A DNA stretch of 64,000 bases from Sulfurimonas indica (GTDB taxonomy: Bacteria; Campylobacterota; Campylobacteria; Campylobacterales; Sulfurimonadaceae): assembly GCF_009192995.1 (NCBI RefSeq), contig NZ_SDID01000014.1:1-64000 (forward strand), given 5' to 3'. Position numbers and translations under genes: made by a program. Shown here in pieces: positions 1,517-63,442 of this stretch (the first letter of the stretch is position 1; every line of letters begins with the position of its first letter). The notes under the pieces are model-generated. The model made no database searches. It was given only the letters and a program-made list of their open reading frames with translations, and was not told the DNA's origin.

Positions 1517-2448
1517 TGCTTCGACTTTTTTTAGTGTTACTGCTGTGTCTTGTGTTAGAGGCAGATGAAGGGCTTGTAACACGTCAAAAGGTACTGATGG
1601 GTACCTTTGTGACGCTTTCTGTTGAAAGTGCGCATAAAGAGCTTATAGAGCCTTCTTTTAGAGTGCTTAACAATATTGAAAAATCTCTCTCCAGTTTTGA
1701 TGAAAACTCTCCGATTTATAAACTCAATCATAACAAAAGTGCTAAACTTGATAGTTACAGTTATGAAGCGCTTCAACTTTCTTTGGAGTATTACAAACAG
1801 ACAGACGGCTACTTTGACATTGCCATTGGAAAAATAACAAAAGATCTGTATCGTTTTGGCCAAGATGAGCGAGTAGCTGTGAAAAAAGAATTAAAAGCAG
1901 CTTCTACAGATATGAACGGGTTTGAGTTCAACAAAGATGAAGCAATCATTACAGACGATATAAAAGTAGACCTTGGTGGAATGGGGAAGGGCTATGGAGT
2001 CGACAAAACAGTAGCATTTTTAAAAAAGCATAAGGTGCAAAAAGCCATTGTTGCATTGAGTGGTGATATTCGCTGTATCGGAGGCTGTAAGGTAATAGTA
2101 AATAATCCTCTGCGTGAGGATATACCTTTAGCAAGCTTTACGATAAATAACAGCGGTGTGAGTACAAGTGGAAATTATAATCGTTATGTAAAAGAGAAAA
2201 AGTATAACCATCTCATCAATCCAAAGACAAAAGAGTCTGCGTCTAACTTTTTGTCTGTAACACTCATTTCAAAACTGCCTTCTGCAACACTTGATGCCTA
2301 TGCGACAGCTGTAAGTGTCATGCCTAAGAACAAAGCCTATATGTTTTTGGATTTACAGCCACTTGCATATATTATTTTAGAATCAGACAAGAGCTTACAT
2401 ATCAGCCATGATATCAATGATTATGTAGATGATCTAAAACGCAAATGA
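1516..2448 (+). CDS. apbE: FAD:protein FMN transferase (ApbE family)
   Basis: 310 residues with a hydrophobic N-terminal signal (about 1-16), so probably periplasmic. ApbE enzymes transfer FMN from FAD onto a Thr or Ser of target proteins. Family marks are the early MGTF segment (29-32), VDLGGMGKGYGVD (151-163), the following ALSGDIRCIGG, and LDAYATAVSVMP near the C terminus, part of the Mg/FAD site. It is coupled to ribBA by a one-base overlap (TAATG). Its 3' end overlaps the convergent cytochrome gene by 15 bp. The likely local substrate is the FMN-binding protein at 4472-5002, which carries a TGAT flavinylation motif; that link is inferred. Confidence 0.9.
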   Translation: MLRLFLVLLLCLVLEADEGLVTRQKVLMGTFVTLSVESAHKELIEPSFRVLNNIEKSLSSFDENSPIYKLNHNKSAKLDSYSYEALQLSLEYYKQTDGYFDIAIGKITKDLYRFGQDERVAVKKELKAASTDMNGFEFNKDEAIITDDIKVDLGGMGKGYGVDKTVAFLKKHKVQKAIVALSGDIRCIGGCKVIVNNPLREDIPLASFTINNSGVSTSGNYNRYVKEKKYNHLINPKTKESASNFLSVTLISKLPSATLDAYATAVSVMPKNKAYMFLDLQPLAYIILESDKSLHISHDINDYVDDLKRK

Positions 2449-3537
2449 TTCTGTTTTTAAGACCTTTATCTTTGTAAGTTCTTTGTCTTTATCAAGTTGC
2501 AGTTCTTTTGCTGCCTCTTTTGATATGAGTCGAAAACCTAGAGTTATTATCAGCTGGTCGCCTTTTTTCAGTTTTGTATCATAGTTGATACTCTTTTTCG
2601 CATAGATGAGTGTATCTTTTAAAACTTCTGTTGCTTCAAAAGGCATGCTTGTTTTTCCATCTTTTCCAAATGTGCGTTTAAATATGTATGGTTTTAGTGC
2701 AATGTGTTTTCCGTCTCGGACGATTTTTACTTCCAAAATACCTTCTCTGTAAGCCTGACCAAAAAGAGCATGATTGGCTTGGTTGATAATATTTACAGTA
2801 AAACCTTTTGTATCTTTTGTTACATCAATATCAATATATTTACCTAAATCTTTTGAGAACTTATGCAGACCCGCTATGCCATGGTAAGCGTGTGTCTTAC
2901 TATCTCTGAGTGTTGTTTTTGAGCCCATTGTCTTTGGCATATGACAGGAGATACAGGTCTCTTTGTCTTTTTTATCAATGTAGGCATCAAGCATAACAAC
3001 ATCGAAGCCGTGAGCATTGTTCACGTGAGAGTGGCATCCCATACAGACATTGCCATTATAGTAGTTTTCATTATTATACTCTATTTGATGATATGGTGAG
3101 TTTTTAGAGCGTTTGATAAGACCGAAAAATGAGCTAGTTGTCTCATACTTTACTTTTGCTTTTTCTTTTTTATCGGCTTCGGCACTGTAAAAATCTCTTT
3201 TTTTGTCACTGAGCACGTTTTTATTTTGCTCGTCATGCTCTTGAATATTAGTTATGGTATGACAATAGACACATGAGATAGGCTCTTCTTTTGCCTCTTT
3301 TTGTGTTTTTGCACTTGGTGAGTGGCATGCTTTACATTCATTTTTATCTGTAACTTGTTTTTCTTTTTCAAAGACAGCTTTATAGATTTTATCACTCTCA
3401 AGAGAGGATTTTCTATGGATGGAACTGTAGTACTCTTTATAGATAAGCGGATGACACTTTTGGCAAACTTTACTCTCACTTGCCAGCAGTGAACTGAGAT
3501 TAAGAACGATAAATAGTGTAAGGAGTAGTTTTTTCAT
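2434..3537 (-). CDS. Periplasmic pentaheme cytochrome c
   Basis: 367 residues with a signal peptide (about 1-20). Five CxxCH heme c sites occur at residues 25-29 (CQKCH), 68-72 (CKACH), 89-93 (CVYCH), 165-169 (CMGCH) and 195-199 (CISCH), a spacing that recalls the cytochrome c554 family. Residues ~220-367 have no heme motif, look beta-rich and may form a separate binding domain. It is the last gene of a five-gene minus-strand operon with a porin, an FMN-binding protein and two membrane proteins, suggesting it passes electrons across the periplasm. Partner and acceptor are unknown. A nitrite- or hydroxylamine-handling enzyme is possible, but no catalytic heme variant (such as CxxCK) is seen. 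Confidence 0.85.
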   Translation of the reverse strand: MKKLLLTLFIVLNLSSLLASESKVCQKCHPLIYKEYYSSIHRKSSLESDKIYKAVFEKEKQVTDKNECKACHSPSAKTQKEAKEEPISCVYCHTITNIQEHDEQNKNVLSDKKRDFYSAEADKKEKAKVKYETTSSFFGLIKRSKNSPYHQIEYNNENYYNGNVCMGCHSHVNNAHGFDVVMLDAYIDKKDKETCISCHMPKTMGSKTTLRDSKTHAYHGIAGLHKFSKDLGKYIDIDVTKDTKGFTVNIINQANHALFGQAYREGILEVKIVRDGKHIALKPYIFKRTFGKDGKTSMPFEATEVLKDTLIYAKKSINYDTKLKKGDQLIITLGFRLISKEAAKELQLDKDKELTKIKVLKTESFAF

Positions 3538-3552
3538 AGAAAAGATTGTACC

Positions 3553-4471: not shown

Positions 4472-5002
4472 TTACTTCCCTTTTAAAAGTTTATTGTAGA
4501 TTGCAAAGGCGATGCGTGAGCTGTCAGTGACACTTCTTGCACTGAGTGTTGCTCCTGTGATAGTGGGAATATCACGTGAGAGTTGCAGCATTTTATTGGT
4601 TTTTATATCTCTGAACTGCTCTTGCCATGTTTTACTTGGAATATACTCATGTGGTTCATTAAAGGCAATAATCTCGATACCTTTAAGTGTTCCATCGCTG
4701 ATAAGGTACATAACAACACCATTTTTAGAGCGTACTTTTTTATTGATCAAAATTCCGTATCCAAGAATCTTTCCATCTTTTTTTGCTGTATAGATACGAT
4801 AAATTTTGGTTGTCAGTTTTGTTTTTGCTTCTGCCTGTACTTTTTTAAAATCCTCATTTGAAAGAAGGATGTTTTTCTTACTTATGGTAACACTTTTACC
4901 ATAGTTCTCTTTCATGGCATCTATCGGTGAAAGAAGAACTTTCGCCGATAGATTTGCTGTCAAAAAGATAAAGAGTAAAGAGAAGATAAATGTTTTTTTC
5001 AT
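4472..5002 (-). CDS. Periplasmic FMN-binding protein (RnfG/NqrC-type FMN-binding domain)
   Basis: 176 residues with a signal peptide (about 1-20). The C-terminal half matches the FMN-binding domain family of RnfG, NqrC and NosR. The motif TGAT at 149-152, inside RDIPTITGATLSARSV, is the usual ApbE flavinylation signal; Thr152 should carry covalent FMN. The gene starts at ATG 5002, 41 bp after the porin gene, and its stop abuts the next membrane-protein gene. Such single-domain proteins act as one- or two-electron relays in the periplasm. The nearby apbE and the pentaheme cytochrome support a redox role; the actual substrate cannot be read from sequence. Confidence 0.85.
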   Translation of the reverse strand: MKKTFIFSLLFIFLTANLSAKVLLSPIDAMKENYGKSVTISKKNILLSNEDFKKVQAEAKTKLTTKIYRIYTAKKDGKILGYGILINKKVRSKNGVVMYLISDGTLKGIEIIAFNEPHEYIPSKTWQEQFRDIKTNKMLQLSRDIPTITGATLSARSVTDSSRIAFAIYNKLLKGK

Positions 5003-6480: not shown

Positions 6481-8898
6481 ATGATGGAAAATGTTAAATG
6501 GTTTAACGAAATAGGCATAGAGGATGTTGCAGAAGTTGGTGGAAAAAATGCTTCGTTGGGTGAAATGTATCAAAACCTCACGCAGCTAGGTGTACGTGTT
6601 CCAAATGGTTTTGCCGTTACATCAAGTGCATACAGATATATACTTGATACCAATAATGCATGGGAAAAACTCCATACAGAACTTGATAATTTAGATATAA
6701 ATGATGTTGATAGTTTGCAAAAGCATGGGAAGGCATGTAGAGATATCATATATAGTTGTGAAATGCCTGATGATTTGAAGCAAGATATCTTAAATGCTTA
6801 TGCAAAACTCAAAGCGGAATATGGTGAAGAGCTTTCGCTTGCTGTTCGTTCCTCTGCTACTGCTGAAGACTCTCCTGAAGCCTCTTTTGCAGGACAAAAT
6901 GATACTTATCTGAATATTTCCACGGAAGATGAGCTTTTAGATGCCTACAAAAGGTGTCTCGCCTCCAATTTTACAGACCGTTCTATCCATTATAAGTATG
7001 ACAATGGTTTTGATTATTTAAAAGTCTATCTTTCTGTTGTTGTAATGAAGATGGTTCGCAGTGACATAGGGACAAGTGGTGTAATGTTCTCTCTTGATAC
7101 GGAAACTGGGTTTGAAGATGTTGTTTTTATAAATGCGGCACTTGGGCTTGGTGAAAATGTAGTACAAGGAAGTATCAATCCTGATGCCTTTTATGTTCAC
7201 AAACCGACATATAATGAGGGTTTTCGTGCAGTACTTAAGCGCTCACTGGGCTCAAAAGAGCAAAAGATGATATTTACAGATACCATCAATCTTGACAATA
7301 TCGCAGTTGAGTATACAAAAAATATTCCTACCACTCAAGAGGAACGTAGCCATTTTTGTATTACAGATGAGGATGTGATGGTACTTGCAGGTTATGCTAT
7401 AAAAGTGGAAAATCATTACTCCAAAAAAGCCGGTTTTCATAAACCGATGGATATGGAGTGGGCAAAAGATGGAATAGACGGACATCTCTATATGGTTCAA
7501 GCAAGACCTGAGACTGTAGAGTCCCAAAAAAAAGGTAATGTGCTCGAGATTTATCATCTTAAAGAAAAAGGCAAAGTGATTGTTAGCGGTCAGGCTATCG
7601 GTACAAAAATTGGTCAGGGAAAGGCACACTACATAAAAGATGTCAGTGAGCTGAATACTTTTAAAGCCGGAGAGGTTTTGGTCGCTGATACCACATCACC
7701 TGACTGGGAACCTGTGATGAAGATAGCATCTGCTATTGTTACAAACAAGGGAGGACGTACCTGTCATGCGGCGATACTGAGTCGTGAACTTGGTATTCCT
7801 GCAGTTGTCGGATGTGATAATGCTACAGAGCTATTAACAGATGCTAGTGATGTGACTGTCAGCTGTGCAGAAGGTGAAGAGGGTTATGTTTATGAAGGTA
7901 GACTCGCTTTTGAGATTCAAAAGACAGATCTGAGTAATCTGCCAAAAACGAAAACAGCAATTATGATGAACCTTGGCAACCCTGATCAGGCCTTTTCACT
8001 TTCTTCCCTTCCGGTAGATGGTATTGGACTTGCCCGTATGGAATTTATCATAAATGAATATATCAAAGCACATCCAATGGCACTAAAACATCCGGAGCGT
8101 GTTGATGATAGGACTAGAGAGCAGTTACAGGAGCTCACGCAGGCATATGATTCTATGGAAGATTTCTTTGTAAAAACGCTCTCTGAAGGTGTGGCAACCA
8201 TTGCATCGAGTGTTTATCCTAAACCTTGTGTGGTACGTATGAGTGATTTTAAATCCAATGAGTATGCAACACTTTTAGGTGGAAGCAGTTTTGAACTTCA
8301 AGAAGATAACCCGATGATAGGGTTTCGAGGAGCCTCACGATATGCGCATCCAAATTATGAAGAGGGGTTCGCCTTAGAATGTGCTGCGATGAAACGTGTG
8401 CGTGAGGAGATGGGCTTTACAAATGTAATCTTAATGATTCCATTTTGCCGTAGAGTAGAAGAGGGTAAGCATGTTATCGATACAATGGCGAAATATGGTC
8501 TCAAACAGGGTGAAAACGGACTGCAAATCTATGTAATGTGTGAGATACCAAACAATGTGATCAGTATTGATGCCTTTAGTGAAATCTTTGATGGTTTTAG
8601 TATAGGAAGCAATGATCTCACGCAGCTCACACTTGGCGTGGATCGCGACAGTGAAATCGTTGCATTTGATTATGATGAACGAGATGAGGGTGTTAAGGAG
8701 ATGATTAAGATGGCAGTAGAAGGGTGTAAACGTAACAATCGGCACAGTGGTATCTGTGGTCAGGCACCCTCAGACTATCCTGAAATGGCAGAATATCTGG
8801 TACGACTTGGTGTGGATTCTATGAGCTTAAACCCTGACAGTGTTCTAAAAACCATACAGAACATAGGTTTTTTAGAAAAAAAACTTACAAGAGCCTAA
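6481..8898 (+). CDS. ppsA: Phosphoenolpyruvate synthase
   Basis: 805 residues, normal length. The enzyme converts pyruvate, ATP and water to phosphoenolpyruvate, AMP and phosphate, opening gluconeogenesis in organisms that fix carbon through pyruvate. The N-terminal ATP-grasp domain has GGKNASLGEM and LAVRSSATAEDSPEASFAGQ. The mobile phosphohistidine domain has GGRTCHAAI with the catalytic His near residue 429. The C-terminal barrel has GSNDLTQLTLGVDRDS and the GICGQAPSDYPE segment. Two ATGs occur at 6481 and 6484; GGAG at 6473-6476 fits the second better (7-nt spacing). The next gene starts one base after the stop, so they are cotranscribed. Confidence 0.95.
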   Translation: MMENVKWFNEIGIEDVAEVGGKNASLGEMYQNLTQLGVRVPNGFAVTSSAYRYILDTNNAWEKLHTELDNLDINDVDSLQKHGKACRDIIYSCEMPDDLKQDILNAYAKLKAEYGEELSLAVRSSATAEDSPEASFAGQNDTYLNISTEDELLDAYKRCLASNFTDRSIHYKYDNGFDYLKVYLSVVVMKMVRSDIGTSGVMFSLDTETGFEDVVFINAALGLGENVVQGSINPDAFYVHKPTYNEGFRAVLKRSLGSKEQKMIFTDTINLDNIAVEYTKNIPTTQEERSHFCITDEDVMVLAGYAIKVENHYSKKAGFHKPMDMEWAKDGIDGHLYMVQARPETVESQKKGNVLEIYHLKEKGKVIVSGQAIGTKIGQGKAHYIKDVSELNTFKAGEVLVADTTSPDWEPVMKIASAIVTNKGGRTCHAAILSRELGIPAVVGCDNATELLTDASDVTVSCAEGEEGYVYEGRLAFEIQKTDLSNLPKTKTAIMMNLGNPDQAFSLSSLPVDGIGLARMEFIINEYIKAHPMALKHPERVDDRTREQLQELTQAYDSMEDFFVKTLSEGVATIASSVYPKPCVVRMSDFKSNEYATLLGGSSFELQEDNPMIGFRGASRYAHPNYEEGFALECAAMKRVREEMGFTNVILMIPFCRRVEEGKHVIDTMAKYGLKQGENGLQIYVMCEIPNNVISIDAFSEIFDGFSIGSNDLTQLTLGVDRDSEIVAFDYDERDEGVKEMIKMAVEGCKRNNRHSGICGQAPSDYPEMAEYLVRLGVDSMSLNPDSVLKTIQNIGFLEKKLTRA

Positions 8899-9826: not shown

Positions 9827-12402
9827 GAAAGGGAAATGATGAGCTTTCTAATCTGACAGGACTGAGCGAAGAAGAAGTTCATGAACGACTGCAAAAATAC
9901 GGTTACAATGAGATAAATGAGAAAGAGGAGAGTTGGTTACATCGTTTTTTTCGTCGATTTTGGGGACCAATTCCATGGATGATTGAAGTTGCAGCCATTC
10001 TTTCTGCAGTTGTGAAGAGATGGGAAGACTTTATTATCATAATTATTTTACTCTTCGTGAATGCTATAGTTGATTTCTATCAAGAGTCCAAAGCTTTGAA
10101 TGCAATAGCAGTGTTAAAGAAAAGATTAGCACGAAAAGCATTGGTATTACGTGAAAATGAATGGATGGAAATTGATGCAAAAGAGATAGTACCTGATGAT
10201 ATTATAAAAATAAAGATAGGCGATATAGTACCTGCAGATGTTGCGTTGTTGCAAGGAAGTGAGTTTTTGCTTGTTGATCAGTCTGCACTTACAGGTGAAT
10301 CTTTGCCTGTTCGAAAAAAAACAGGTGAGACATTGTATGCAAATGCCATCATTAAACAGGGTGAAATGGTAGCACGGGTTACACAAACAGGAAAAAATAC
10401 CTATTTTGGAAAGACAGTTGGACTTGTGGCAAAAGCCCAAAATGAAGAGGTAAGCCATTTCCAAAAAATGGTTATAAAGGTAGGGAATTTTTTAATCTTT
10501 TTAACACTCTTTATGATTGCTATCATTATTTATCATGGTATCCAAACAAATCAGCCTACAGTTGAGTTATTAATCTTTGCACTTGTTTTGACAATCTCTG
10601 CTATTCCAGTTGCCATGCCGGCAGTTTTAACTGTTACTATGGCCATAGGTGCAAGAGCTCTGGCTGCCAAAGAGGCTATTGTGAGTCGCTTGGCTGCTAT
10701 TGAAGAGATAGCAGGTATGGATGTATTGTGTTCCGATAAAACAGGCACATTAACACAAAACAGAATGAGCCTGGCGGAACCATATTTAGTAAAGGATACA
10801 ACGCAAGAAAAACTGATGCTTTATGCAGCACTGGCAAGTAAAAAAGAGAATCAAGATCCTATTGAAAAGCCTATCTTTGATTATATAGACAAATATAGCC
10901 TTCAAAGTGAAATTGCAGCACATAAATTGAAAAAATTTCTTCCATTTAATCCTGTTCATAAAAGAACAGAAGGGATTTATGAAGATGAAAATTGTGAACT
11001 TATCTTTACAAAAGGTGCCCCGCAGGTTATTATAGAACAGAGTGATGAAAAAGAGTTTGACAAAGAAGCAGCTTATAAAAAAGTAGAATATTTTGCTTCT
11101 GAGGGTTTTCGAACCTTGGGTGTCGCTTATAGAAAATGTGAAGAGGATCTGTACCATTTTATAGGACTGATTCCTCTTTTTGATCCACCTCGTGAAGATT
11201 CTGTAGAAGCTATAGCCGAAGCCAAGGCAAAAGGTATTACAGTTAAAATGATTACAGGAGATAATCTTGCTGTTGCAAAATATATTGCATCTTTGCTAGA
11301 TATTGGAGAAAAGATAGAGGATATCCATATACTTAAAGGAGAATCAGTCGAGGAGTATATCTATCTTTCAAAAATATTATCCAAAGCTATTGTTCAGTCA
11401 TTACAACCTGATGTAGCACAGGAGAAGATAGATGAAGAGGTAACCAAGATTGTTAAAAAAGTTCAAAAAGAGCTTTATAATATGCCGCTTCCAAAAGGGA
11501 GTGTTAAAAAACATGAGTCAGAGATCATTGCACTTATAGAGTATGCTGACGGTTTTGCACAGGTTTTTCCTGAAGATAAATATTTTATAGTCGATGAACT
11601 GCAAAAGGCCGACCATATTGTCGGTATGACAGGAGATGGGGTCAATGATGCACCGGCACTTAAAAAAGCAGATTGTGGAATAGCAGTCAGTGGTGCTACA
11701 GATGCTGCACGTGCTGCAGCCGATATTGTACTTATGGCTCCTGGTCTGAACGTGATTGTTGATGCTATTAAAGAGTCAAGACAGATTTTTGAACGTATGA
11801 AAAGTTATACAATTTTTCGTATTGCTGAAACCATACGTGTCATTATTTTTATGACACTTGCAATTGTTGTATATGATTTTTATCCTATTACCGCTTTGAT
11901 GATAATTATACTTGCACTTCTTAATGATATACCAATTATGAGTATAGCCTATGATAATACAAAGTTGCGTGAGACACCTGTACGCTGGGATATGAAAGAG
12001 GTTTTTGTTCTGGCTTCCTGGTTGGGAATAGCAGGAGTGCTTTCTTCCTTTTTACTCTTTTGGATATTAATCTCATATATGGATCTGCCACTTGAACTGG
12101 TTCAAAGTCTGTTTTTTGCAAAACTGGTTATTGCCGGACATGGTACAATATACAATATGCGTATAGATGACTGGTTCTTCAAACGGCCATGGCCTTCTAG
12201 GACACTTTTTGGTGCAACTTTTTTAAGTCGTGTTACTGGAACAATAATTGCCGTATATGGTTTTGATCTGATGGCGCCAATCGGTTGGGGATGGGCTGGC
12301 TATATGTGGGCTTATGCTCTTGTGTGGTTTGTGTTTAATGATGCTGTAAAAATGGCTGTACTTAAATATTATAGAACAAGATATAATGAGGATATCATAT
12401 GA
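9823..12402 (+). CDS. P-type ATPase, plasma-membrane proton-pump type (P3A) with extra insertion
   Basis: 859 residues. Phosphorylation motif CSDKTGTLTQN with Asp305; actuator-domain TGES at 157-160; SAIPVAMPAVLT in the ion-binding membrane helix (259-270); hinge MTGDGVNDAPALKKAD near 602-617. PVAMP and the overall N and C ends match fungal/plant-type H+-ATPases, found also in some bacteria and archaea. Residues ~505-570, between MITGDNLAVAKYI and YADGFAQVFPEDKY, hold a charged helical insertion absent from the usual eukaryotic proteins. The gene starts inside the dehydrogenase stop and overlaps the LOG gene by 4 bp. Proton export or pH homeostasis is the likely role; transport of another cation is possible. 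Confidence 0.88.
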   Translation: MRKGNDELSNLTGLSEEEVHERLQKYGYNEINEKEESWLHRFFRRFWGPIPWMIEVAAILSAVVKRWEDFIIIIILLFVNAIVDFYQESKALNAIAVLKKRLARKALVLRENEWMEIDAKEIVPDDIIKIKIGDIVPADVALLQGSEFLLVDQSALTGESLPVRKKTGETLYANAIIKQGEMVARVTQTGKNTYFGKTVGLVAKAQNEEVSHFQKMVIKVGNFLIFLTLFMIAIIIYHGIQTNQPTVELLIFALVLTISAIPVAMPAVLTVTMAIGARALAAKEAIVSRLAAIEEIAGMDVLCSDKTGTLTQNRMSLAEPYLVKDTTQEKLMLYAALASKKENQDPIEKPIFDYIDKYSLQSEIAAHKLKKFLPFNPVHKRTEGIYEDENCELIFTKGAPQVIIEQSDEKEFDKEAAYKKVEYFASEGFRTLGVAYRKCEEDLYHFIGLIPLFDPPREDSVEAIAEAKAKGITVKMITGDNLAVAKYIASLLDIGEKIEDIHILKGESVEEYIYLSKILSKAIVQSLQPDVAQEKIDEEVTKIVKKVQKELYNMPLPKGSVKKHESEIIALIEYADGFAQVFPEDKYFIVDELQKADHIVGMTGDGVNDAPALKKADCGIAVSGATDAARAAADIVLMAPGLNVIVDAIKESRQIFERMKSYTIFRIAETIRVIIFMTLAIVVYDFYPITALMIIILALLNDIPIMSIAYDNTKLRETPVRWDMKEVFVLASWLGIAGVLSSFLLFWILISYMDLPLELVQSLFFAKLVIAGHGTIYNMRIDDWFFKRPWPSRTLFGATFLSRVTGTIIAVYGFDLMAPIGWGWAGYMWAYALVWFVFNDAVKMAVLKYYRTRYNEDII

Positions 12403-16461: not shown

Positions 16462-17778
16462 ATGTATGACATAATTTACATAGGTGGTGGACTTAACTAT
16501 GCTGGTGCCATTGTTGCAGCAAAAAATGGGAAAAATGTGGCGCTTATTGAAAAAGATCTTAACCAGCTTGGTGGTGTATGTCTGCAAAAAGGGTGCATTC
16601 CTTCAAAGATGTTTTTACATTATGCCAATTTGGTGTATGAGAGTAAAAACGAGATACTGCAAGGGGAGTTGGAACTTTGTCAAAAAACACTTTTTGAAAA
16701 AAAAGATGCATTGCTCAAAAGTGTAACAAAAGTTGTGCAAAAGCAGTGTAGCCATTTTGAACTGATTGAAGGGGAAGGGAGCGTTGTTGCTCCGCATAAA
16801 GTTGAGGTAAACGGTAAGGTTTTAGAAGCTGAGCATATTGTTATGGGAACGGGTTCAGCGCCTTTTATTCCTGAAGGTATTGAGTACAATAAAAAAGATA
16901 TCATTGTAAGCGATGAGGTGTTACAACTGCAAGAACTTCCAAAAAAAGTTGCTGTTTACGGTACTGGGGCTATTGGACTTGAGATGGCAAGTTTTTTTGC
17001 AGCTGCCGGAGTTGAAGTTTTTCTCATTGACAGGTCTGAAAATATTTTGTTCAATGCGCATCCAAAAATCATCGAATCATTGAAAAACCAGCTTGAGAAA
17101 CTGGGTATCAAGCTTTTACAAAATCATCCAATAAAAAGTGCAAAGAGTACAAAAAAAGGTGTACATATAACATATGAAGGTAAAAGCAGTAAATATTTTG
17201 AGATGCTCTTAGTGGCTACCGGACGCAGACCAAATGTCGATGTCGTTGCCTGTGATGATATAAAGGTGGAACGTGGAATTGTAACTGACACTCATTTTGA
17301 GACAACGCTGCAAAAGCATTATGCTATAGGAGACTGTAATGGCAAGGTCAAACTTGCTCACGCAGCACGAGCTGAAGTTCTGAACGTCACAGAACGTATT
17401 CTTGGAAAAAAACCTCGTATACTTAACTTAGAGCATGTTGTGAAGTTTATCCATACTTTGCCAATGAGGTATGCTAGAGTTGGAAAGAATAAAGCAGATT
17501 TAGAAGAACAAAAGCTAGAGTACAAAGAGAGTATTATAATGCTCAATCAATTTACATATTCAGTTTATAATCATGCAAGTAATGGTGTAATGGTCAGTTA
17601 TATTGATAGAGAGGGATTTGTTTTGGGTGCGGAGATTTTTGCTCCAAATGCAGAAGAGCTTATCGCACCGGTTGCAATAAGTTTGGCAGGGGAGATGGAC
17701 GCTGCATCGGCAAAACGAACCATCTTGGCACATCCTACATTTTCCGAAGCCTTAGAGAGAACATTTTATAAGTTATGA
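16462..17778 (+). CDS. lpdA: Dihydrolipoamide dehydrogenase (E3)
   Basis: 438 residues, slightly short for the family. FAD-binding motif GGGLNYAGAIVAAKNG at the N terminus; redox-active disulfide CLQKGC (C40, C45); NAD-binding GTGAIGLEMASFF near 173-185; FAD-side YAIGDCNG; C-terminal catalytic His in AHPTFSEALERTF. It reoxidises the dihydrolipoyl group of E2 with NAD+. The first residues read IYIGGGLNYAG rather than the usual VIGGGPGGY, a modest divergence. It is the third gene of the 2-oxoacid dehydrogenase operon and overlaps lipB by 4 bp. Confidence 0.88.
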   Translation: MYDIIYIGGGLNYAGAIVAAKNGKNVALIEKDLNQLGGVCLQKGCIPSKMFLHYANLVYESKNEILQGELELCQKTLFEKKDALLKSVTKVVQKQCSHFELIEGEGSVVAPHKVEVNGKVLEAEHIVMGTGSAPFIPEGIEYNKKDIIVSDEVLQLQELPKKVAVYGTGAIGLEMASFFAAAGVEVFLIDRSENILFNAHPKIIESLKNQLEKLGIKLLQNHPIKSAKSTKKGVHITYEGKSSKYFEMLLVATGRRPNVDVVACDDIKVERGIVTDTHFETTLQKHYAIGDCNGKVKLAHAARAEVLNVTERILGKKPRILNLEHVVKFIHTLPMRYARVGKNKADLEEQKLEYKESIIMLNQFTYSVYNHASNGVMVSYIDREGFVLGAEIFAPNAEELIAPVAISLAGEMDAASAKRTILAHPTFSEALERTFYKL

Positions 17779-19179: not shown

Positions 19180-19874
19180 AGAATGCAAAACTTGTTTTAA
19201 TGCGACATGGGCAAAGTGTCTATAATCTACAAAACCGTTTTACCGGTTGGAGTGATGTGGAGCTAAGTGAACAGGGTGTGCGTGAGGCCAGAGAAGCAGG
19301 AGTGCTTTTAAAAAAACATAAAATCTATCCGGATATCTGTTTTACTTCATGGCTTAAACGTGCCATTCATACAGCAAATTTGGCTTTAGAAGAGCTTGAG
19401 TGGGAGCACATTGATACACTTCGTTCTTACAAGCTAAATGAAAGACACTATGGAGCGTGGCAGGGAAGAGATAAGAAGAAGGTAAAACAGCAAGAGGGTG
19501 CAGCAAACTTCTTGGCAGTTCGTCGTGGTTATGATGTGCCACCACCACCTCTACGTGAGGATGACGAAAGAGTGGTCTGGAGAGATAAAAAATATGCCGC
19601 AATTCAAAAAGAGCTTTTACCTTTGAGTGAGTCATTAAAAGATACAAAAAAGAGAGTTGTGGAGTATTTTGAAGCTGTGATAAAAAAAGAACTGCAAAAG
19701 CATTCCACTGTTTTAATCTCGGCTCATGGAAACTCCCTGCGTTCTTTAGTAATGTATCTGGAGAAGATAAGTAAAGAGGATGTCGTGAGACTTGAAATTC
19801 CAACAGGAGAGATAATTGTATACGCTTTTAATGAGAAGCTCAATATCATTAAAAAAGAGGTTTTCAAAGGATGA
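19176..19874 (+). CDS. gpmA: 2,3-bisphosphoglycerate-dependent phosphoglycerate mutase
   Basis: 232 residues. Catalytic His11 lies in LVLMRHGQSVYN. RFTGWSDVELSEQG, LNERHYGAWQG and the second histidine in ISAHGNSLRSL are intact. It interconverts 3- and 2-phosphoglycerate in glycolysis and gluconeogenesis. Its place after the lipoate genes matches the central-carbon theme of the operon that begins with ppsA upstream. It overlaps lipA by 4 bp; the cation efflux gene follows after 4 bp. Confidence 0.93.
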   Translation: MKNAKLVLMRHGQSVYNLQNRFTGWSDVELSEQGVREAREAGVLLKKHKIYPDICFTSWLKRAIHTANLALEELEWEHIDTLRSYKLNERHYGAWQGRDKKKVKQQEGAANFLAVRRGYDVPPPPLREDDERVVWRDKKYAAIQKELLPLSESLKDTKKRVVEYFEAVIKKELQKHSTVLISAHGNSLRSLVMYLEKISKEDVVRLEIPTGEIIVYAFNEKLNIIKKEVFKG

Positions 19875-20775: not shown

Positions 20776-21429
20776 ATGTCTAAAATACTTCTTTTAGAAG
20801 ATGATGAAGTCTTAGCAGAGACTTTGAGTGAGCTCTTGGAGAATGAAGGTTTTGAAGTAGTTCATGTTACAAATGGAGAGATGGCACTTGATGCTACTTT
20901 CAATGCAAATTTTGAACTCTTTTTACTTGATGTAAATGTGCCACAGCTCAATGGTTTTGAACTTTTAAAGAGTCTGCGTGAGGCGGAGAACACGACACCT
21001 GCCATATTCATTACATCTTTAAACGATATTGCTTCACTCTCAAAGGGTTTTGAAATCGGAGCAGATGATTACATTAAAAAACCTTTTGATTTTGATGAGC
21101 TTTTAGTTCGTATCAAAGCACTCATCCGTAAGTCATATCACAGTAGGTCAAATCTCCTGAGTGTAGCAAACTTTGCTTTTGATATTGAGAAGAACGAACT
21201 CTATAAAGATGATATTTTTGTAAAGCTTTCTCCTTATGAGCTACAAATCGTAAGACTATTTTTTAAAAATCTCAATCAAACGCTTTTGAAAGAAGATCTT
21301 TTAGAAGAGTTAGGAGACGGCAGGGAGATGAGCGAAGGAGCACTGCGTGTGCATATCGCAAAACTACGAAAAACAGGACTCAATATCACAACCATTAAGG
21401 GAATAGGATATCGCCTTGCGTCATCATGA
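20776..21429 (+). CDS. OmpR-family response regulator
   Basis: 217 residues. Receiver domain with acidic pocket LLLEDDE and phospho-acceptor Asp52 in LFLLDVNVPQLNG; conserved Lys in ADDYIKKPF. The C-terminal winged helix (about 125-217) has SPYELQIVRLFFKN and ALRVHIAKLRKTG...IKGIGYRL. It starts directly after the CDF stop and overlaps the kinase gene by 14 bp, so the pair is coupled. Targets are unknown; the CDF gene and the Spy-like gene across the operon end are candidates. Confidence 0.92.
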   Translation: MSKILLLEDDEVLAETLSELLENEGFEVVHVTNGEMALDATFNANFELFLLDVNVPQLNGFELLKSLREAENTTPAIFITSLNDIASLSKGFEIGADDYIKKPFDFDELLVRIKALIRKSYHSRSNLLSVANFAFDIEKNELYKDDIFVKLSPYELQIVRLFFKNLNQTLLKEDLLEELGDGREMSEGALRVHIAKLRKTGLNITTIKGIGYRLASS

Positions 21430-24504: not shown

Positions 24505-25340
24505 TGAGCTATTATGAGGTACTGCTTCTCTTTTTTGGTGGGCTTGGTATCTTTGTCTATGCAATCTATTTTGTTTTAAGATTTAAAAAAGAGAGACATT
24601 TAGAACAATTACAAAGTGAGCCTTTTAAAGAAGAGTACAGAACCTACTTAGAACAAACACCTCATTATAAAAATCTCTCAGCTGAAGATAAAGCCAAGAT
24701 AGAACGCTCCATTATCATATTTACCAATACAAAAGAGTTTATCGGCGTGGGTATAGAGCTCACGCAGGAGATGAAAATTATTATCGCTTTTTATGCCTGT
24801 CTTTTATTGCTGCGTAAAACAACAACAAACTGTTATGATAATCTCAAGACCATTATTATCTATCCAAGTGTGGTAGTCTTTGAAAATCTGCACTCATCAG
24901 GTGGTATTTATACCAAAGAGAAGTTTCTTCTTGAAGGACAGGCTGCAAATGATACAGTTGTCATCATCTGGCATGATGCAAAAAAAGAGGCCTATCATCT
25001 ACGTCATGGCAATGTTATTATTCATGAATTTGCCCATGAGATAGACTTTATGGATGGAGAAATTGATGGTGTTCCACCGATTGAGCGTTCAAAGTATGAT
25101 GAGTGGACACGGGTACTTTTTCATGATTTTAAAAAACTCAGCAATGTGGCTTTAAAAAACAGAGATTGGGGCAAGTACAAACTTTTAGGCTCTTATGCTG
25201 CAACAAATGAAGCAGAGTTTTTTGCAGTGCTTACAGAGCGTTTTTTTGAATCACCCCAGAGTCTTAAAAAGCATTTCCCGGAACTTTATAATGAGCTCAA
25301 AGATTTTTATAAAATCGATACAATAAAGCTTATAGGCTAA
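24504..25340 (+). CDS. MtfA-like zinc peptidase (M90 family)
   Basis: 278 residues starting at GTG 24504 overlapping the arsC stop. One N-terminal membrane segment (about 5-23) is followed by a soluble domain. The zinc motif HEFAHEIDFMDG (HExxH) and the downstream NEAEFFAVLTERFFE, with the third ligand, match the MtfA/M90 family. In E. coli MtfA processes or inactivates the regulator Mlc; here no such partner is visible. The N-terminal anchor places it at the inner membrane. Confidence 0.85.
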   Translation: MSYYEVLLLFFGGLGIFVYAIYFVLRFKKERHLEQLQSEPFKEEYRTYLEQTPHYKNLSAEDKAKIERSIIIFTNTKEFIGVGIELTQEMKIIIAFYACLLLLRKTTTNCYDNLKTIIIYPSVVVFENLHSSGGIYTKEKFLLEGQAANDTVVIIWHDAKKEAYHLRHGNVIIHEFAHEIDFMDGEIDGVPPIERSKYDEWTRVLFHDFKKLSNVALKNRDWGKYKLLGSYAATNEAEFFAVLTERFFESPQSLKKHFPELYNELKDFYKIDTIKLIG

Positions 25341-33951: not shown

Positions 33952-34569
33952 TTATAGTCCTTCCATTAAAACATTCCAAAGTCTTTCTATCTCTTTATCA
34001 TCTAAAAAAAGGGAAGATTTGTTCTCATAAAGTTCTTGCAGCCCTTTTGGATTGATAGGGTAGGTGTGAGAGCAGTTTTCATGTGTCGGCAGGTAAGCAC
34101 GGATGAGTGAAATGTTTTCTTCTATCTTGCGTGAGCATAAAAAGCAGTGCATATCTTTGTGCAGACGACCTTCATGCTCTAAAAGCTTTACATAGGATTC
34201 AATGGCCACACGTTTTGGGTTTTGCTTACTCCACTCATTTGAGGCAGATTCTAAAAGTTCAAAGTAAAAATCTCCAAGGGCTTCAGCTTCTTTGAGATGT
34301 TTGTAAAAGAGCCCACTGAAACTTTGCCAGAGTCGAAGCAATTCGCGGTCATTTATCCATCTATACCCAATATGCACAACATCTTTAAGTCGTCCGATGG
34401 TACTTTTTGCAGAAGGTTCTATCTCATAGTCGATTTTAAAGCCGAGATTAATTACTCCATGACGTGCTCCGTAGAATCTGTAAAGCGTCTCTAAGCTCCC
34501 TCTTGATAAAATAGTAACTATTAAATCTTCCTCTTTGACGCGATTAAGATTTATGATAAAACCTTTCAC
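33952..34569 (-). CDS. recO: DNA recombination/repair protein RecO
   Basis: 205 residues, near the short end of the family. The N-terminal OB-like part (MKGFIINLNRVKEEDLIVTILS...LETLYRFYGARHG) and the zinc-type CFLC near 143-146 followed by a His/Cys region (HENCSH) match the divergent RecO of Campylobacterota. RecO loads RecA at gaps with RecR. Alone in its orientation here, it diverges from gltB. Confidence 0.78.
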   Translation of the reverse strand: MKGFIINLNRVKEEDLIVTILSRGSLETLYRFYGARHGVINLGFKIDYEIEPSAKSTIGRLKDVVHIGYRWINDRELLRLWQSFSGLFYKHLKEAEALGDFYFELLESASNEWSKQNPKRVAIESYVKLLEHEGRLHKDMHCFLCSRKIEENISLIRAYLPTHENCSHTYPINPKGLQELYENKSSLFLDDKEIERLWNVLMEGL

Positions 34570-41577: not shown

Positions 41578-42141
41578 ATGCGACTCTATGCTTTATGTGA
41601 CCAGGATATGCTTGATAAAAAAGGTCTCTCTTTAGAGATATTTTTAGAAAAAGCAAATGAACATAAGGCAGAAATCATTCAATATCGTGCAAAAAATGCA
41701 GATATTGCCTTCATTAAAAAACAACTCATAGCAATAAGAAAAGAGTATGACGGTTTTTTGATTGTCAATGATGCCTATGAACTCATAGAGTTTTGTGATG
41801 GTGTCCATATGGGTCAAGAGGATCTGCGTGAGATAGATGAAGATATCAACAAAGCAGTGACTATTTTGCGCAGTGTTATAGGAAGTGACAAGATACTGGG
41901 TGTCTCAACACATAATGAAGAAGAGGTGCTTCAAGCAAACAGCATGGATCTCAACTACATTGGTTTGGGTGCTTATAGAGATACATTGACGAAACAAGAT
42001 GTCTCGACAGTTTTGGGTGACAAGCTTGATGCTATTGCACAACTTTCAGACCATTATGTCGCAGCTATTGGTGGTGTGAAACTTGATGACAAGTTTGAAC
42101 ATGTTACGTATCATGTCATAGGAAGTAGGTTATTTGAATGA
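41578..42141 (+). CDS. thiE: Thiamine phosphate synthase family protein
   Basis: 187 residues, somewhat short. [45 protein letters not shown] and the C-terminal AIGGV follow the ThiE/TenI pattern. ThiE joins the thiazole and pyrimidine parts of thiamine; TenI is an isomerase-like relative. The QYR and GQEDL motifs support ThiE. It starts one base after accD and overlaps rlmH by 4 bp. Confidence 0.8.
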
Positions 42142-48668: not shown

Positions 48669-51494
48669 TTGAAAAAAAAAGATTTAATAAAAATTACAGG
48701 TGCTCGTGAAAACAACTTAAAAAATATAAACTTGAGCATACCAAAAAATGAACTTATCGTTATGACGGGCCTTAGTGGAAGTGGTAAATCAACACTCGCT
48801 TTTGATACGCTCTATGCAGAGGGACAACGACGTTATATGGAGAGTCTATCCTCTTATGCAAGACAATTCCTTGACCGTGTCGGTAAGCCTGATGTTGATA
48901 AGATAGAAGGACTGACTCCCGCTATTGCTATTGATCAGAAAACGACTTCTAAAAATCCTCGCTCTACTGTCGGGACGATTACTGAGATTTATGATTATCT
49001 ACGTCTTTTATATGCACGTGTAGGGATTCAGCACTGTCATAAGTGTGGCAAGGTTATCTCACAGATGTCTGCATCAGATATCATCAATGAAGTGGCAAAA
49101 TTACCAGAAGGTGCGAAACTTGTTCTTATGGCACCGTTAGTGCGTGAGAATAAGGGAAGTTATGCAGATCTGTTAGAATCACTGGTACATAAAGGGTATG
49201 TTCGTGCTATGATTGATGGTGTGATGGTACGTCTTGATGAAGAGATTGAGCTCTCTAAAACAAAAAAACATACGATTAAAGTTGTCATTGACAGAGTTGT
49301 CGTGAAAGAAGAGAATAAAGAGCGAATTGCTTCTTCGGTTGAAAAAGCATTGAAAGAGAGCTATGGCGAGCTTGAGATCGATGTACTTAATGCCCAAGAG
49401 TTAGGAATTTCTGAACATATTCACTACTCGGAACATAATGCCTGCTTTGACTGTAAAATCAGTTTTGATGAACTAGAGCCACTCAGCTTTTCATTTAACT
49501 CTCCAAAGGGTGCATGTAGTGAGTGTGACGGATTAGGACTTCGCTATGCGCTTGATGTAGAGAAGATAATAGATCAAGACCTGCCGATAGAAAAGGGTGC
49601 GGTCAAGATTGTTTATGGTTTTAACAAAGGTTATTACTTTACCTTCTTAAAAGGTTTTTGTGCAGCTAATGATATTGATATCACCGTACCTTATTCAGAA
49701 CTGCCGCAGCATCAGCAAAAAGCAATACTTCATGGTGGTATAGAAGAGGTCGAGTTTCTTTGGAAAAAACATAAGGTAAAACGAATTTTTCCGGGGATTA
49801 TTCGCATCGCTTATGATATGTTCAAGGATGAAAAAGAGCTTGGTGATTATATGAGTGAGAAGGTCTGTAATGTTTGTAATTCTCACCGTCTTAAGCTCGA
49901 ATCACTTGCTGTAAAAGTGGCAGATAAAGGCATAGCAGAACTGCTCGATATGCCAATAGCAAAAACATACGAGTTCTTTGCAAATGAAGAGAATTTTACA
50001 TACCTTGACAAACAGCATGCGCAAATCGCACTGCCGATTTTAAATGAGATACGTGAGCGTCTCTTTTTCCTTTATGATGTAGGACTTGGCTACATCACAC
50101 TTGGACGTGATGCACGTACGATTTCTGGGGGTGAGGCTCAGCGTATTCGCATTGCTTCGCAGATTGGAAGTGGACTGACTGGTGTTATGTATGTTTTGGA
50201 TGAGCCAAGTATAGGGCTACATGAGAGAGATACACTCAAACTCATTAAAACACTTAGAAGTCTGCAGAAAAAGGGTAATACCGTCATCGTTGTTGAACAT
50301 GACAAAGAGACTATTGAAAATGCTGATTTTATTGTAGATATCGGAAGTGGAGCAGGGAAGTTCGGTGGAGAGGTTGTCTTTAGTGGTACACTTGATAAAC
50401 TCAAAAAAGCAAAGACACTCACTGCAGATTATCTCTATGGTCGTAAAAAGATAGAGTACTTTTATAGACGTGGCCAAGAAAAGTGGGTAGAGATTAAAAA
50501 TGTAACGATTAACAACATCAAAAATCTCTCTGCGAAAATTCCGCTCAATAATTTTGTATGTATTACAGGTGTCAGTGGAAGTGGTAAAAGTTCACTGATG
50601 CTTCAAACACTCCTGCCTGTTGCACGTGAGCTTTTAAATCATGCCAGAAAGGTCAATAAAGTTGCAGGTGTCGAGATAACAGGGCTTGAAAATGTCGATA
50701 AGGTCATCTATCTTGATCAAAGTCCTATCGGGCGTACTCCACGTTCAAACCCTGCAACTTATACCGGTGTAATGGATGAGATACGTAACCTCTTTGCACA
50801 AACAAAAGAGAGTCAGATTCGTGGTTATACTGCTTCACGCTTCTCTTTTAATGTAAAAGGTGGACGTTGTGAGAAATGTCAGGGTGAGGGTGAGATAAAA
50901 ATAGAGATGCATTTCTTACCAGATATTATGGTCAAATGTGACAGCTGTAAAGGTCGCCGTTACAATGACCAAACTTTAGAGGTCTACTATAAAGGCAAAA
51001 CCATTTCTGATGTGCTTAATATGAGTGTAGATGAAGCTTTTGAGTTCTTTAAACCGATTCCAAAGATTCATCAGAAGATGAAAACACTTGTTGATGTGGG
51101 CTTAGGTTACATCACACTCGGACAAAATGCTGTGACACTCTCAGGTGGAGAGGCACAGCGTATCAAACTTTCAAAAGAGCTCTCACGCAAAGATACTGGA
51201 AAAACACTCTATATCTTAGATGAACCTACAACAGGACTGCATTTTGCCGATGTAGACAGACTGACAAATGTTCTTCATAAATTTGTAGAGCTTGGTAACT
51301 CTGTACTTATCATCGAGCATAATCTTGATATGATAAAAAATGCTGATTATATCATCGATATGGGACCAGAAGGGGGTAGTGGCGGTGGACTTGTCATCGC
51401 AGAAGGCTCACCAGAAGCATTGGCAGAGAATTATGAAAGAACAGGTTCTTATACAGGTGAGTATCTCAAAAAAGAGCTGGCACTTCATAAATAA
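48669..51494 (+). CDS. uvrA: Excinuclease ABC subunit A
   Basis: 941 residues, full length, TTG start with AAAGG upstream. Two ABC modules: GLSGSGKSTLA and GVSGSGKSSLM (Walker A), ISGGEAQRIRIA and LSGGEAQRIKLS (signatures). Zinc cysteines are in CHKCG, CFDC...CSECDG and CEKCQGEG...CDSCKG. It recognises helix-distorting damage in nucleotide excision repair. Confidence 0.97.
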   Translation: MKKKDLIKITGARENNLKNINLSIPKNELIVMTGLSGSGKSTLAFDTLYAEGQRRYMESLSSYARQFLDRVGKPDVDKIEGLTPAIAIDQKTTSKNPRSTVGTITEIYDYLRLLYARVGIQHCHKCGKVISQMSASDIINEVAKLPEGAKLVLMAPLVRENKGSYADLLESLVHKGYVRAMIDGVMVRLDEEIELSKTKKHTIKVVIDRVVVKEENKERIASSVEKALKESYGELEIDVLNAQELGISEHIHYSEHNACFDCKISFDELEPLSFSFNSPKGACSECDGLGLRYALDVEKIIDQDLPIEKGAVKIVYGFNKGYYFTFLKGFCAANDIDITVPYSELPQHQQKAILHGGIEEVEFLWKKHKVKRIFPGIIRIAYDMFKDEKELGDYMSEKVCNVCNSHRLKLESLAVKVADKGIAELLDMPIAKTYEFFANEENFTYLDKQHAQIALPILNEIRERLFFLYDVGLGYITLGRDARTISGGEAQRIRIASQIGSGLTGVMYVLDEPSIGLHERDTLKLIKTLRSLQKKGNTVIVVEHDKETIENADFIVDIGSGAGKFGGEVVFSGTLDKLKKAKTLTADYLYGRKKIEYFYRRGQEKWVEIKNVTINNIKNLSAKIPLNNFVCITGVSGSGKSSLMLQTLLPVARELLNHARKVNKVAGVEITGLENVDKVIYLDQSPIGRTPRSNPATYTGVMDEIRNLFAQTKESQIRGYTASRFSFNVKGGRCEKCQGEGEIKIEMHFLPDIMVKCDSCKGRRYNDQTLEVYYKGKTISDVLNMSVDEAFEFFKPIPKIHQKMKTLVDVGLGYITLGQNAVTLSGGEAQRIKLSKELSRKDTGKTLYILDEPTTGLHFADVDRLTNVLHKFVELGNSVLIIEHNLDMIKNADYIIDMGPEGGSGGGLVIAEGSPEALAENYERTGSYTGEYLKKELALHK

Positions 51495-61794: not shown

Positions 61795-62043
61795 ATGCGA
61801 ATAGATAAATTTTTAAACTCTGTAAATATTACAAAACGACGCTCAGTTGCACAGGATATGCTTGCAAATGGCGTTGTAGAGATAAACGGTGTAGTGGTAA
61901 AACCGAGTAAAAATGTCGAGGTTGGGAGTGTCATAACCATCAACTATCTCAAAGAGCCAAAAAAGTATGAAGTACTGCAGATTCCTACAACAAAATCAAC
62001 ACCAAAATCACTCCAGCATGAGTATATCAAGGAGATTTCATAA
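61795..62043 (+). CDS. S4-domain RNA-binding protein
   Basis: About 82 residues from ATG 61795; a TTG at 61780 would add five. The S4 fold MRIDKFLNSVNITKRRSVAQDMLANGVVEINGVVVKPSKNVEVGSVI fills most of it, like the Hsp15/RqcP group that acts on stalled ribosomes or tRNA. It overlaps the start of trpD by one base. Confidence 0.88.
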   Translation: MRIDKFLNSVNITKRRSVAQDMLANGVVEINGVVVKPSKNVEVGSVITINYLKEPKKYEVLQIPTTKSTPKSLQHEYIKEIS

Positions 62044-63029
62044 TGAATTATGAAGAGGCAAAAGCAGAATTTACAAAACTTTTTGAACATAAAATGAGTG
62101 ATGATCAGATGCGTGAGTTTTTACTCTCACTTGAGCTGAATGAACATACTCCTGTTGAGACAATAGCTGCTGCTGCAGATGTGATGCGTTCTTTTGCAAT
62201 TCCTTTACCAATAAGTGAAGAGTTGCGTGAGCGTGCCATTGACATCGTAGGTACTGGCGGTGATAAGATAGGCTCTTTTAATATCTCTTCAACGACTTCT
62301 ATTTTAACTGCTGCTTGTGGAGCAACTGTTGCAAAACATGGAAACCGCTCTATCACGTCAAAGAGTGGGAGTGCAGATGTACTTGAGGCTTTAGGTATTA
62401 ACTTGGCCCTTTCTGTAGAGCAAAATGCAAGACTCTTAGAAGAAGCCGGATGGTGTTTTATGTTTGCACAGAACCATCACCCTGCGATGAAGTTCATTAT
62501 GCCGGTGCGTAAGTCCATAGATACAAAGACAGTGTTTAATGTCTTAGGTCCGCTTACAAATCCTGCAAACATCAAAAAATATATGCTTGGTGTCTTCGAC
62601 AAAGCTTTTGTACCAAAGATGGCTGAAGCGTTGAAAATAAACGGTGCCGCGTCAGCTCTTGTTGTTAGCTCGCAGGAGGGGATGGATGAGATAGGTATCA
62701 GTGGTGTCACGTATGCCACACGTCTAAAAGATGGTAAGCTCGAAGAGTTTGAGATAAATCCAGAAGATTATGGACTTAAATGCGCTCCGCTTGAAGCAAT
62801 AGCCGGTGGTGATGCCAGAGAAAATGCAAAAATTATGTTTAACATCTTTGATAATACATCAACAGATGCACAGCGTGATATCGTACTTTTAAATACGGCA
62901 GCTTCACTGATGGTGGATGGTTTGGCTCGTGATATTCAAGATGGGTTAGAGATGGGGCGTGAAGCACTTGCAAATGCTCGTGCGAAGAAAAAGCTAAAAC
63001 AGATTGTAGAGTTGTCAAACAAGCTATGA
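62043..63029 (+). CDS. trpD: Anthranilate phosphoribosyltransferase
   Basis: 328 residues. GTGGDKIGSFNISSTTSILTAACG, KHGNRSITSKSGSADVLEALG, FMFAQNHHPAMK and LGPLTNPA are conserved. It joins anthranilate to PRPP in tryptophan synthesis. No other trp gene is nearby, which suggests a scattered pathway. Its stop overlaps tsaE by 4 bp. Confidence 0.95.
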   Translation: MNYEEAKAEFTKLFEHKMSDDQMREFLLSLELNEHTPVETIAAAADVMRSFAIPLPISEELRERAIDIVGTGGDKIGSFNISSTTSILTAACGATVAKHGNRSITSKSGSADVLEALGINLALSVEQNARLLEEAGWCFMFAQNHHPAMKFIMPVRKSIDTKTVFNVLGPLTNPANIKKYMLGVFDKAFVPKMAEALKINGAASALVVSSQEGMDEIGISGVTYATRLKDGKLEEFEINPEDYGLKCAPLEAIAGGDARENAKIMFNIFDNTSTDAQRDIVLLNTAASLMVDGLARDIQDGLEMGREALANARAKKKLKQIVELSNKL

Positions 63030-63442
63030 AAAAAGAGTATAAGCTAGAGTTACATGAACTCAATAAGCTCACGCAGGATGTCTTAGATACATTTTCAAAC
63101 GGTGTTATTATCTTGCGTGGAGATTTGGCAGCTGGAAAGACAACACTTGTGAAAGCTTTCGCAAAAAAGTTAGGCTGTGATGAAGAGGTGACATCACCGA
63201 CATTTTCCCTACAGCAGTGTTATGGTGAGAAGATTTTTCATTATGACATCTATAATCATGGACTGGAGCATTTCATCTCTTTAGGGATGTTAGAAGAGTT
63301 GGATAAAGAGGGACTGCACTTTATAGAGTGGGGTGATGATGCTCTGGTTGAGCTTTTAGAGTCCGCAGGGATTGATGTAATGACAATAGATATAAAAAAG
63401 ATTTCAGATAAAGCAAGAGAGTACAGCATATGCACACATTAA
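63026..63442 (+). CDS. tsaE: tRNA threonylcarbamoyladenosine biosynthesis ATPase TsaE
   Basis: 138 residues, normal size. Walker A LRGDLAAGKTTLVKAFA, SPTFSLQQCY, the HYDIYN motif and FIEWGDD are conserved. It supports TsaD/TsaB in making the t6A base of tRNAs that read ANN codons. The stop overlaps lptB by 13 bp. Confidence 0.94.
   Translation: MKKEYKLELHELNKLTQDVLDTFSNGVIILRGDLAAGKTTLVKAFAKKLGCDEEVTSPTFSLQQCYGEKIFHYDIYNHGLEHFISLGMLEELDKEGLHFIEWGDDALVELLESAGIDVMTIDIKKISDKAREYSICTH

Follow-up and report, generated by a model that had tools for sequence, protein, structure and literature searches.

An over-represented octamer of Sulfurimonas indica as a probable DNA uptake word with dialects among its relatives

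The window analyzed here is a 64,000-nt stretch of Sulfurimonas indica DNA (assembly GCF_009192995.1, contig NZ_SDID01000014.1, positions 1–64,000), throughout which one octamer, TGCGTGAG, recurs on both strands, and the question raised by this locus is what role such a word plays. The word of this sulfur-oxidizing bacterium resembles the self-DNA tags by which some bacteria know the DNA of their own kind, and it is probably, at a rough probability of 0.6, the self-recognition word of a DNA-uptake system, similar to the DNA uptake sequences (DUS) with their dialects; it is classed here as a word that would function in the manner of an uptake sequence rather than as an established member of that class. 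A sequence-only reading of the window had offered four roles, i.e., a Chi site, an uptake word, a segregation word, or a methylation word; the uptake word fits best, whereas the Chi and segregation roles are disfavored by the lack of polarity in the window's genome and by the replacement of the word among relatives.

The 27 exact copies counted in the sequence-only reading were recovered, 16 on the forward and 11 on the reverse strand; 26 of the 27 start positions had been given correctly, and the remaining one, on the reverse strand, is 51182 rather than 51181. Approximately one copy had been expected, in agreement with 100 dinucleotide-preserving shuffles of the window (mean 1.17, maximum 4). 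In a second-order Markov model, TGCGTGAG tops all 8-mers of the window for exceptionality (27 vs. 1.25 expected) and again ranks first in 436 kb sampled from the genome (158 vs. 8.7), a sample from which one short contig was excluded in the later analyses. The entire genome (2,093,483 bases, 2.09 Mb; G000 in the genus set) contains 757 copies (369 forward and 388 reverse) against 23 of the reversed word; the excess, previously put at about thirty-fold, is approximately 23-fold in the window and 33-fold in the genome relative to the reversed word. The fuller consensus is YTGCGTGAGV: among the 158 copies of the 436-kb sample, a pyrimidine is preferred at position −1 (C 0.50, T 0.34) and T is avoided after the word (0.05), with nothing strong further out. 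All 27 window copies lie inside open reading frames (ORFs), with 14 in sense and 13 in antisense orientation. ORF calls came from a simple script that takes the longest ORF, and intergenic counts are therefore approximate. The frames read much as first described (LRE, VRE, LTQ, HA, and SR), with MRE in addition, and the copies are as follows.

2111..2118, forward strand, word copy, sense, LRE frame
4513..4520, forward strand, word copy, antisense to ORF 4472-5002, SR
6577..6584, reverse strand, word copy, antisense, LTQ frame, in the phosphoenolpyruvate synthase ORF
8134..8141, reverse strand, word copy, antisense, LTQ frame
8399..8406, forward strand, word copy, sense, VRE
8617..8624, reverse strand, word copy, antisense, LTQ
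11966..11973, forward strand, word copy, sense, LRE
17357..17364, reverse strand, word copy, antisense, HA
19279..19286, forward strand, word copy, sense, VRE
20975..20982, forward strand, word copy, sense, LRE
24759..24766, reverse strand, word copy, antisense, LTQ
27612..27619, reverse strand, word copy, antisense, HA
28986..28993, forward strand, word copy, sense, LRE
30685..30692, reverse strand, word copy, antisense, HA
32377..32384, forward strand, word copy, sense, LRE
32953..32960, forward strand, word copy, sense, VRE
34128..34135, forward strand, word copy, antisense to ORF 33952-34569, SR
35218..35225, reverse strand, word copy, antisense, SR
36375..36382, reverse strand, word copy, antisense, HA
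36519..36526, forward strand, word copy, sense, LRE
38145..38152, forward strand, word copy, sense, LRE
41825..41832, forward strand, word copy, sense, LRE
49141..49148, forward strand, word copy in uvrA, sense, VRE
51182..51189, reverse strand, word copy in uvrA, antisense, SR
62110..62117, forward strand, word copy in trpD, sense, MRE
62224..62231, forward strand, word copy in trpD, sense, LRE
63068..63075, reverse strand, word copy, antisense, LTQ

The location of nearly all copies in genes, and the commonest frame, which spells Leu-Arg-Glu or a similar tripeptide in sense, would suit either an abundant word of another role, like HIP1 of cyanobacteria, or a drift in mutation or codon-pair preference. 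Both are quite improbable in light of the codon analysis. In 50 synonymous shuffles, wherein the protein and the codon usage of each gene were retained, 15.9 copies were expected in genes (standard deviation 4.1, largest 27) against 173 seen; about nine-tenths of the copies are thus abolished by synonymous shuffling, and the other TGCGTGAG genomes yielded 117 vs. 11.5. The excess extends to all five frame and strand classes occupied: 91 vs. 11 in the sense frame of Leu-Arg-Glu, 2 vs. 0.2 in the sense frame TGC GTG AG (the last sense frame would contain a stop codon), and 28, 28, and 24 vs. 1.3, 3.0, and 0.4 in the three antisense frames, which are used nearly equally. Codon or codon-pair bias is thereby ruled out as the cause, and the refuting condition set in the sequence-only reading, a count near the codon-shuffle expectation or a full explanation by codon-pair bias, fails in every occupied frame. 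A drift is also at odds with the one-letter variants of the word, which are at or below expectation when the change is at positions 3 to 7 and up to 5-fold in excess when it is at positions 1, 2, or 8. Furthermore, the DNA word appears to have changed proteins: the tripeptides written by TGCGTGAG exceed the expectation from amino-acid frequencies (LRE 102 vs. 41.6; LTQ 57 vs. 23.5), whereas LRE has no excess in samples with other words (9 vs. 12.8 and 18 vs. 19.6), and in the sample of GGCATGTG, an abundant word of other relatives, the tripeptide GMW, which GGCATGTG writes, occurs 11 times vs. 0.7.

The word is restricted to a clade. Among 135 genomes of the genus, seven contain 621–962 copies of TGCGTGAG (G000, G007, G013, G020, G022, G027, and G155), G053 contains 99 vs. 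8 of the control, and the remainder contain at most 75; the two genomes at 75 copies have controls of 84 and 89, and a mild excess is found in a few others (39 vs. 8 in G050 and 49 vs. 15 in G052). The highest count among 39 other genomes of the order is 132 vs. 63. The UvrA encoded in the window has its nearest relatives in Sulfurimonas and in Epsilonproteobacteria bins, at up to 96% identity, which places the genome with Sulfurimonas. Genomes are also referred to by their uvrA loci, L001, L002, L003, and L004 corresponding to G013, G020, G027, and G053, respectively, by equal counts. The lineage with 99 copies (L004, L173-L174; G102/G053) is the sister of the TGCGTGAG clade, and its low count could represent an incipient or a decaying word.

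Other relatives carry other words. De novo word counts in stretches of 43 other genomes of the genus and in 80 uvrA loci, which are partly overlapping sets with many genomes thinly sampled, yielded CTGCGTTT, TGGCGTTT, GGCATGTG (fuller form TTGGCATGTGGA), CTACATGT (often as the palindrome TCTACATGTAGA), TGGGATGT (8 vs. 0.6 in one locus), TTAGCATC, and TAGAATCT, the evidence beyond CTGCGTTT and GGCATGTG being weaker. Whole-genome counts of TGCGTGAG, CTGCGTTT, and GGCATGTG were obtained for 50 named genomes, a selection from the 80 uvrA loci, and the genomes were assigned to word sets at thresholds of 600, 140, and 100, respectively, chosen after the counts had been seen. TGCGTGAG has 621–785 copies in three of the 50, CTGCGTTT has 146–2,331 in 12 (2,331 vs. 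83 in that of L040), and GGCATGTG has 109–1,668 in nine (1,668 vs. 10 in that of L022). None of the 50 is rich in two words; the genome of L003, which belongs to the TGCGTGAG set, also contains 97 copies of CTGCGTTT vs. 34. The words look related to one another when aligned by eye: CTGCGTgag and CTGCGTtta have six bases in common, and tGGCgTtta and tGGCaTgtgg differ in few places, while TTAGCATC and TAGAATCT are not clearly part of this series.

The words also follow the phylogeny. In a tree of UvrA DNA with 51 rows (the 50 named genomes and the window), the four TGCGTGAG rows cluster together (support 97); the weak case L004 is their sister (support 100), and the CTGCGTTT row L008 lies nearby. 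Among the 25 rows that carry any of the three words, four changes suffice, and 2,000 label shuffles never required fewer than seven; when the 26 other rows are included as a fourth state, 11 changes are required vs. at least 15 in shuffles. Both GGCATGTG and CTGCGTTT appear in more than one part of the tree, implying that words either changed repeatedly or traveled together with their reader.

Several further words were observed alongside these. CACGTGAG, which has CGTGAG in common with TGCGTGAG, occurs 83 times vs. 8.4 expected in G000 and is weakly in excess (10 vs. 3.6) in the other TGCGTGAG genomes. TAGAATCT occurs 27 times vs. 2.6 in 22.8 kb of L029, and TTAGCATC occurs 13 and 12 times vs. 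1.2 and 1.5 in L023 and L038. In L077, TGCGATCG, which resembles the cyanobacterial HIP1 word, occurs 13 times vs. 0.1 in 22.8 kb. Palindromic or near-palindromic words (TACATGTA, TTACATGT, and TCTACATGTAGA) are abundant in L068, L069, L024, G032, G047, G055, and G006 and may differ in kind from the non-palindromic ones. Three candidate dialects were dropped: GCGTGGGA of G037 sits within a longer conserved repeat, CGATGGGA of L003 was treated as a repeat on the basis of its overlapping words, and GGAAGCGG, found in several uvrA loci, has flanks alike across homologous loci. In the window, 6-mers containing GATC are strongly avoided (AGATCT 20 vs. 91.6, both strands counted), which suggests a GATC-targeting system.

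The strand and spacing of the copies bear on two alternatives. The leading strand was assigned from local GC skew, and 40 permuted words of the same letters served as controls. In the window's genome, 80 copies are leading and 72 lagging (0.53), against 0.68 for the permuted words, which rules out a replication-polar word there; strand neutrality beyond composition is limited to this genome, the fraction in the other TGCGTGAG genomes (smaller sample) being 0.70 vs. 0.68. In the sample of the rest of the genus, GGCATGTG has a leading fraction of 0.43 vs. 0.67, and CTGCGTTT 0.45 vs. 0.49, which is too little contrast to be informative. TGCGTGAG might be a Chi-like recombination signal read by AddAB and changed in the clade: it is G-rich and lies nearly always in genes, and two adjoining PDDEXK_1 genes of AddB and AddA size are present, named from size and pairing, the second scoring below the family cut-off. 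An AddB-like gene was found in nine of the 11 genomes tested; in G007, G101, G103, and the window's genome, it adjoins a gene of AddA size. Polarity, however, is a criterion used for Chi (PMC8022716). A Chi role is unlikely because Chi is polarized and would be expected to persist in a genus that retains its enzyme, whereas TGCGTGAG has no replication polarity in the window's genome and is replaced within one genus although most genomes tested have the AddB-like gene. GAGGGTG, moreover, is a better candidate for Chi than TGCGTGAG, or may be a polar word of another kind: as observed with AGAGGGTG and TGAGGGTG, it is approximately 3-fold or more above the permuted-word mean in both samples and is leading-strand biased (0.83 in 515 kb of G000 and 0.79 in 1.55 Mb of other genus DNA, vs. 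0.74 and 0.67).

The word could instead be the target of another DNA-binding or DNA-modifying protein, such as an orphan methyltransferase, a nucleoid protein, or a segregation factor, as its spacing is compatible with random placement (Kolmogorov–Smirnov test against an exponential, p 0.82), it occupies both strands, and it is restricted to a clade. For a segregation factor of the KOPS type, strong polarity per replication arm would be expected, but none is found in the window's genome by local GC skew. Restriction sites tend toward avoidance rather than enrichment, which speaks against a modifying protein, although a modifying enzyme might still be involved, and a chromosomal role offers no clear reason why one related word should take the place of another from species to species. 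This explanation is as doubtful as that of Chi.

An uptake word would account for more of these features. What was observed is that the word is in excess independently of codon choice, is neutral to strand in the window's genome, is confined to a clade, and gives way to similar words in relatives, and that genes for ComEC and pseudopilins are present; from these we infer receptor recognition, preferential uptake, and drive. Briefly, a surface or periplasmic receptor, perhaps a pseudopilin, would recognize free double-stranded DNA by the word, whichever way the word is oriented, and DNA of relatives would preferentially be taken up via ComEC and then recombined into the genome. As alleles containing the word are taken up again and again, new copies would accumulate by molecular drive at positions where the encoded protein can accommodate them, and, as receptor specificity drifts, the genome would fill with a new word, giving rise to dialects. 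Strand neutrality in the window's genome, the dialects, and the effect on the proteome fit this uptake reading, as would the rarity of the word in two diversifying or unrecognized regions, described below.

The competence machinery is present as judged by genes (gene presence only), i.e., comEC, a secretin, an ATPase of the type II secretion system (T2SS)/type IV pilus (T4P) type, and pseudopilins. comEC was found in 52 of 53 genomes. The window's genome contains nine N-methylated pilin-like genes: four in a T2SS-like cluster with the secretin and the T2SS/T4P-type ATPase, three between priA and a gene which we take to be of flagellar type, about 7 kb from comEC, and two elsewhere. The priA-side pseudopilins are conserved at the start and change fast over the rest of their length. 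When G133 is compared with G142, the flagellar-type neighbor is 91% identical, two of the pseudopilins are 55–57% identical, and the third is 88.5% identical. Just upstream of comEC in L235 (7758-10235), a DnaB gene with internal Hint and LAGLIDADG homing-endonuclease domains represents an intein.

Sites and word-poor DNA were also compared. Where the window's genome aligns at 80–90% identity with three relatives that carry the word (G007 and G022 yielded no alignment and were not counted), nine of 10 comparisons at the sites of the window's genome retain the whole word, against 0.19–0.34 for control octamers with five G+C, few distinct positions underlying these counts. None of three sites is kept in the sister L004 (81% identity), and 0 of 12 and 1 of 13 are kept in more distant sets. 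In two regions chosen after the counts had been seen, the word is rare: contig C4 has two copies in 31 kb vs. approximately 11 expected at the sample density, and a stretch of C7 has none in 20 kb vs. approximately seven. Five of the six C4 proteins scanned match sugar or glycosyltransferase families, and one of the four from C7 matches, to a helicase. The scarcity in these two regions would agree with the pattern described for DUS, which are absent from recently acquired genes and scarce in regions under diversification (PMC2734928).

Several observations weigh against an uptake role. Of the 50 named genomes, 26 belong to none of the three word sets, although some are weak cases (L004; CTGCGTTT 124 vs. 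40 in L033; and GGCATGTG 62 vs. 8 in G134, 38 vs. 4 in G115, and 32 vs. 4 in G117), and ComEC is also present in genomes where no word was found. In the smaller sample of other TGCGTGAG genomes, orientation follows composition; a larger sample gave 63 to 34. In the reverse direction of the site comparison, the window's genome has the word at only nine of the 17 sites that carry it in the relatives. A search among the three pseudopilins near comEC, by identity tables and comparison of seven regions, identified no receptor, none of the three following the word cleanly: the first shares 79% identity with its counterpart in a CTGCGTTT genome; the second has its best matches in three word-bearing genomes (80, 74, and 66%) but reaches only 55% in a fourth; and the third matches a CTGCGTTT genome at 70% and a TGCGTGAG genome at 68%. 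Finally, TGCGTGAG is depleted between genes (six of 297 sites vs. 19.8 expected), is not enriched at gene ends (36 of 278 vs. 55.6 expected), and has no excess of close pairs (4 and 4 vs. 3.2 and 3.3 expected, two of the eight being same-strand); the intergenic depletion and the lack of inverted pairs fit an uptake word poorly, inverted pairs being reportedly numerous in all genomes with DUS dialects (PMC3630211). Both features might derive from AT-rich spacers or from lower recombination there. GGCATGTG, by contrast, is enriched between genes (29 of 137 vs. 9.7 expected), and its close pairs number nine vs. 3.7 expected, all nine inverted, seven intergenic, and able to form hairpins, 3′ of which T-runs were not consistent; its spacing is more clustered than random (p 0.007). 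Within genes, CTGCGTTT and GGCATGTG lean toward gene ends (41 vs. 30.2 and 28 vs. 19.0).

Judged from sequence comparisons, a third independent evolution of uptake words in Sulfurimonas, the genus then having three or more strong dialects and several weaker ones, is somewhat favored. Uptake words are described in Neisseriaceae and Pasteurellaceae, and Sulfurimonas would then be the third lineage. Among the matches listed in the open-license literature, no paper described a word of this kind in Sulfurimonas or Campylobacterota, and none joining uptake sequence, natural transformation, and Sulfurimonas was found; among the papers listed for the octamer itself, no title concerned genome words. 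If true, self-tagging of DNA would be shown to evolve repeatedly, including in a far-off phylum, and the genus would offer many natural receptor–word pairs for comparison. Gene exchange among marine sulfur oxidizers would be partitioned by word, close relatives from vents and sediments being genetically joined or kept apart according to the word each reads, and the tree would allow changes of dialect to be followed.

Among known systems, the uptake signal sequences (USS) of Pasteurellaceae share with TGCGTGAG the abundance of a genome-wide word in both orientations and an effect on protein sequence, but the USS word itself is unrelated to TGCGTGAG. USS are documented in Pasteurellaceae (PMC12616744; PMC2346458) and are biased to gene termini (PMC2346458), whereas TGCGTGAG has no such bias and no strong flanking consensus. 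Chi sites, listed for E. coli, H. influenzae, B. subtilis, L. lactis, and S. aureus in PMC8022716, are likewise abundant short words, and TGCGTGAG resembles them in lying mostly in genes of a genome with an AddB-like gene; it differs in being unpolarized in the window's genome and in that the words change within the genus. The closest comparison is with the DUS dialects of Neisseriaceae, which are read by the minor pilin ComP. These dialects are clade-typical related words that follow the species tree (PMC3630211). The Sulfurimonas words have 8–9 specified bases rather than being 10-mers, occur in a different phylum, and are less alike; TGCGTGAG avoids intergenic DNA and lacks frequent inverted pairs, although the GGCATGTG genomes have both intergenic copies and such pairs; and the part of ComP would perhaps be played by a pseudopilin. 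In common with DUS, many copies of a short non-palindromic word are present, and several related, clade-typical words follow the tree.

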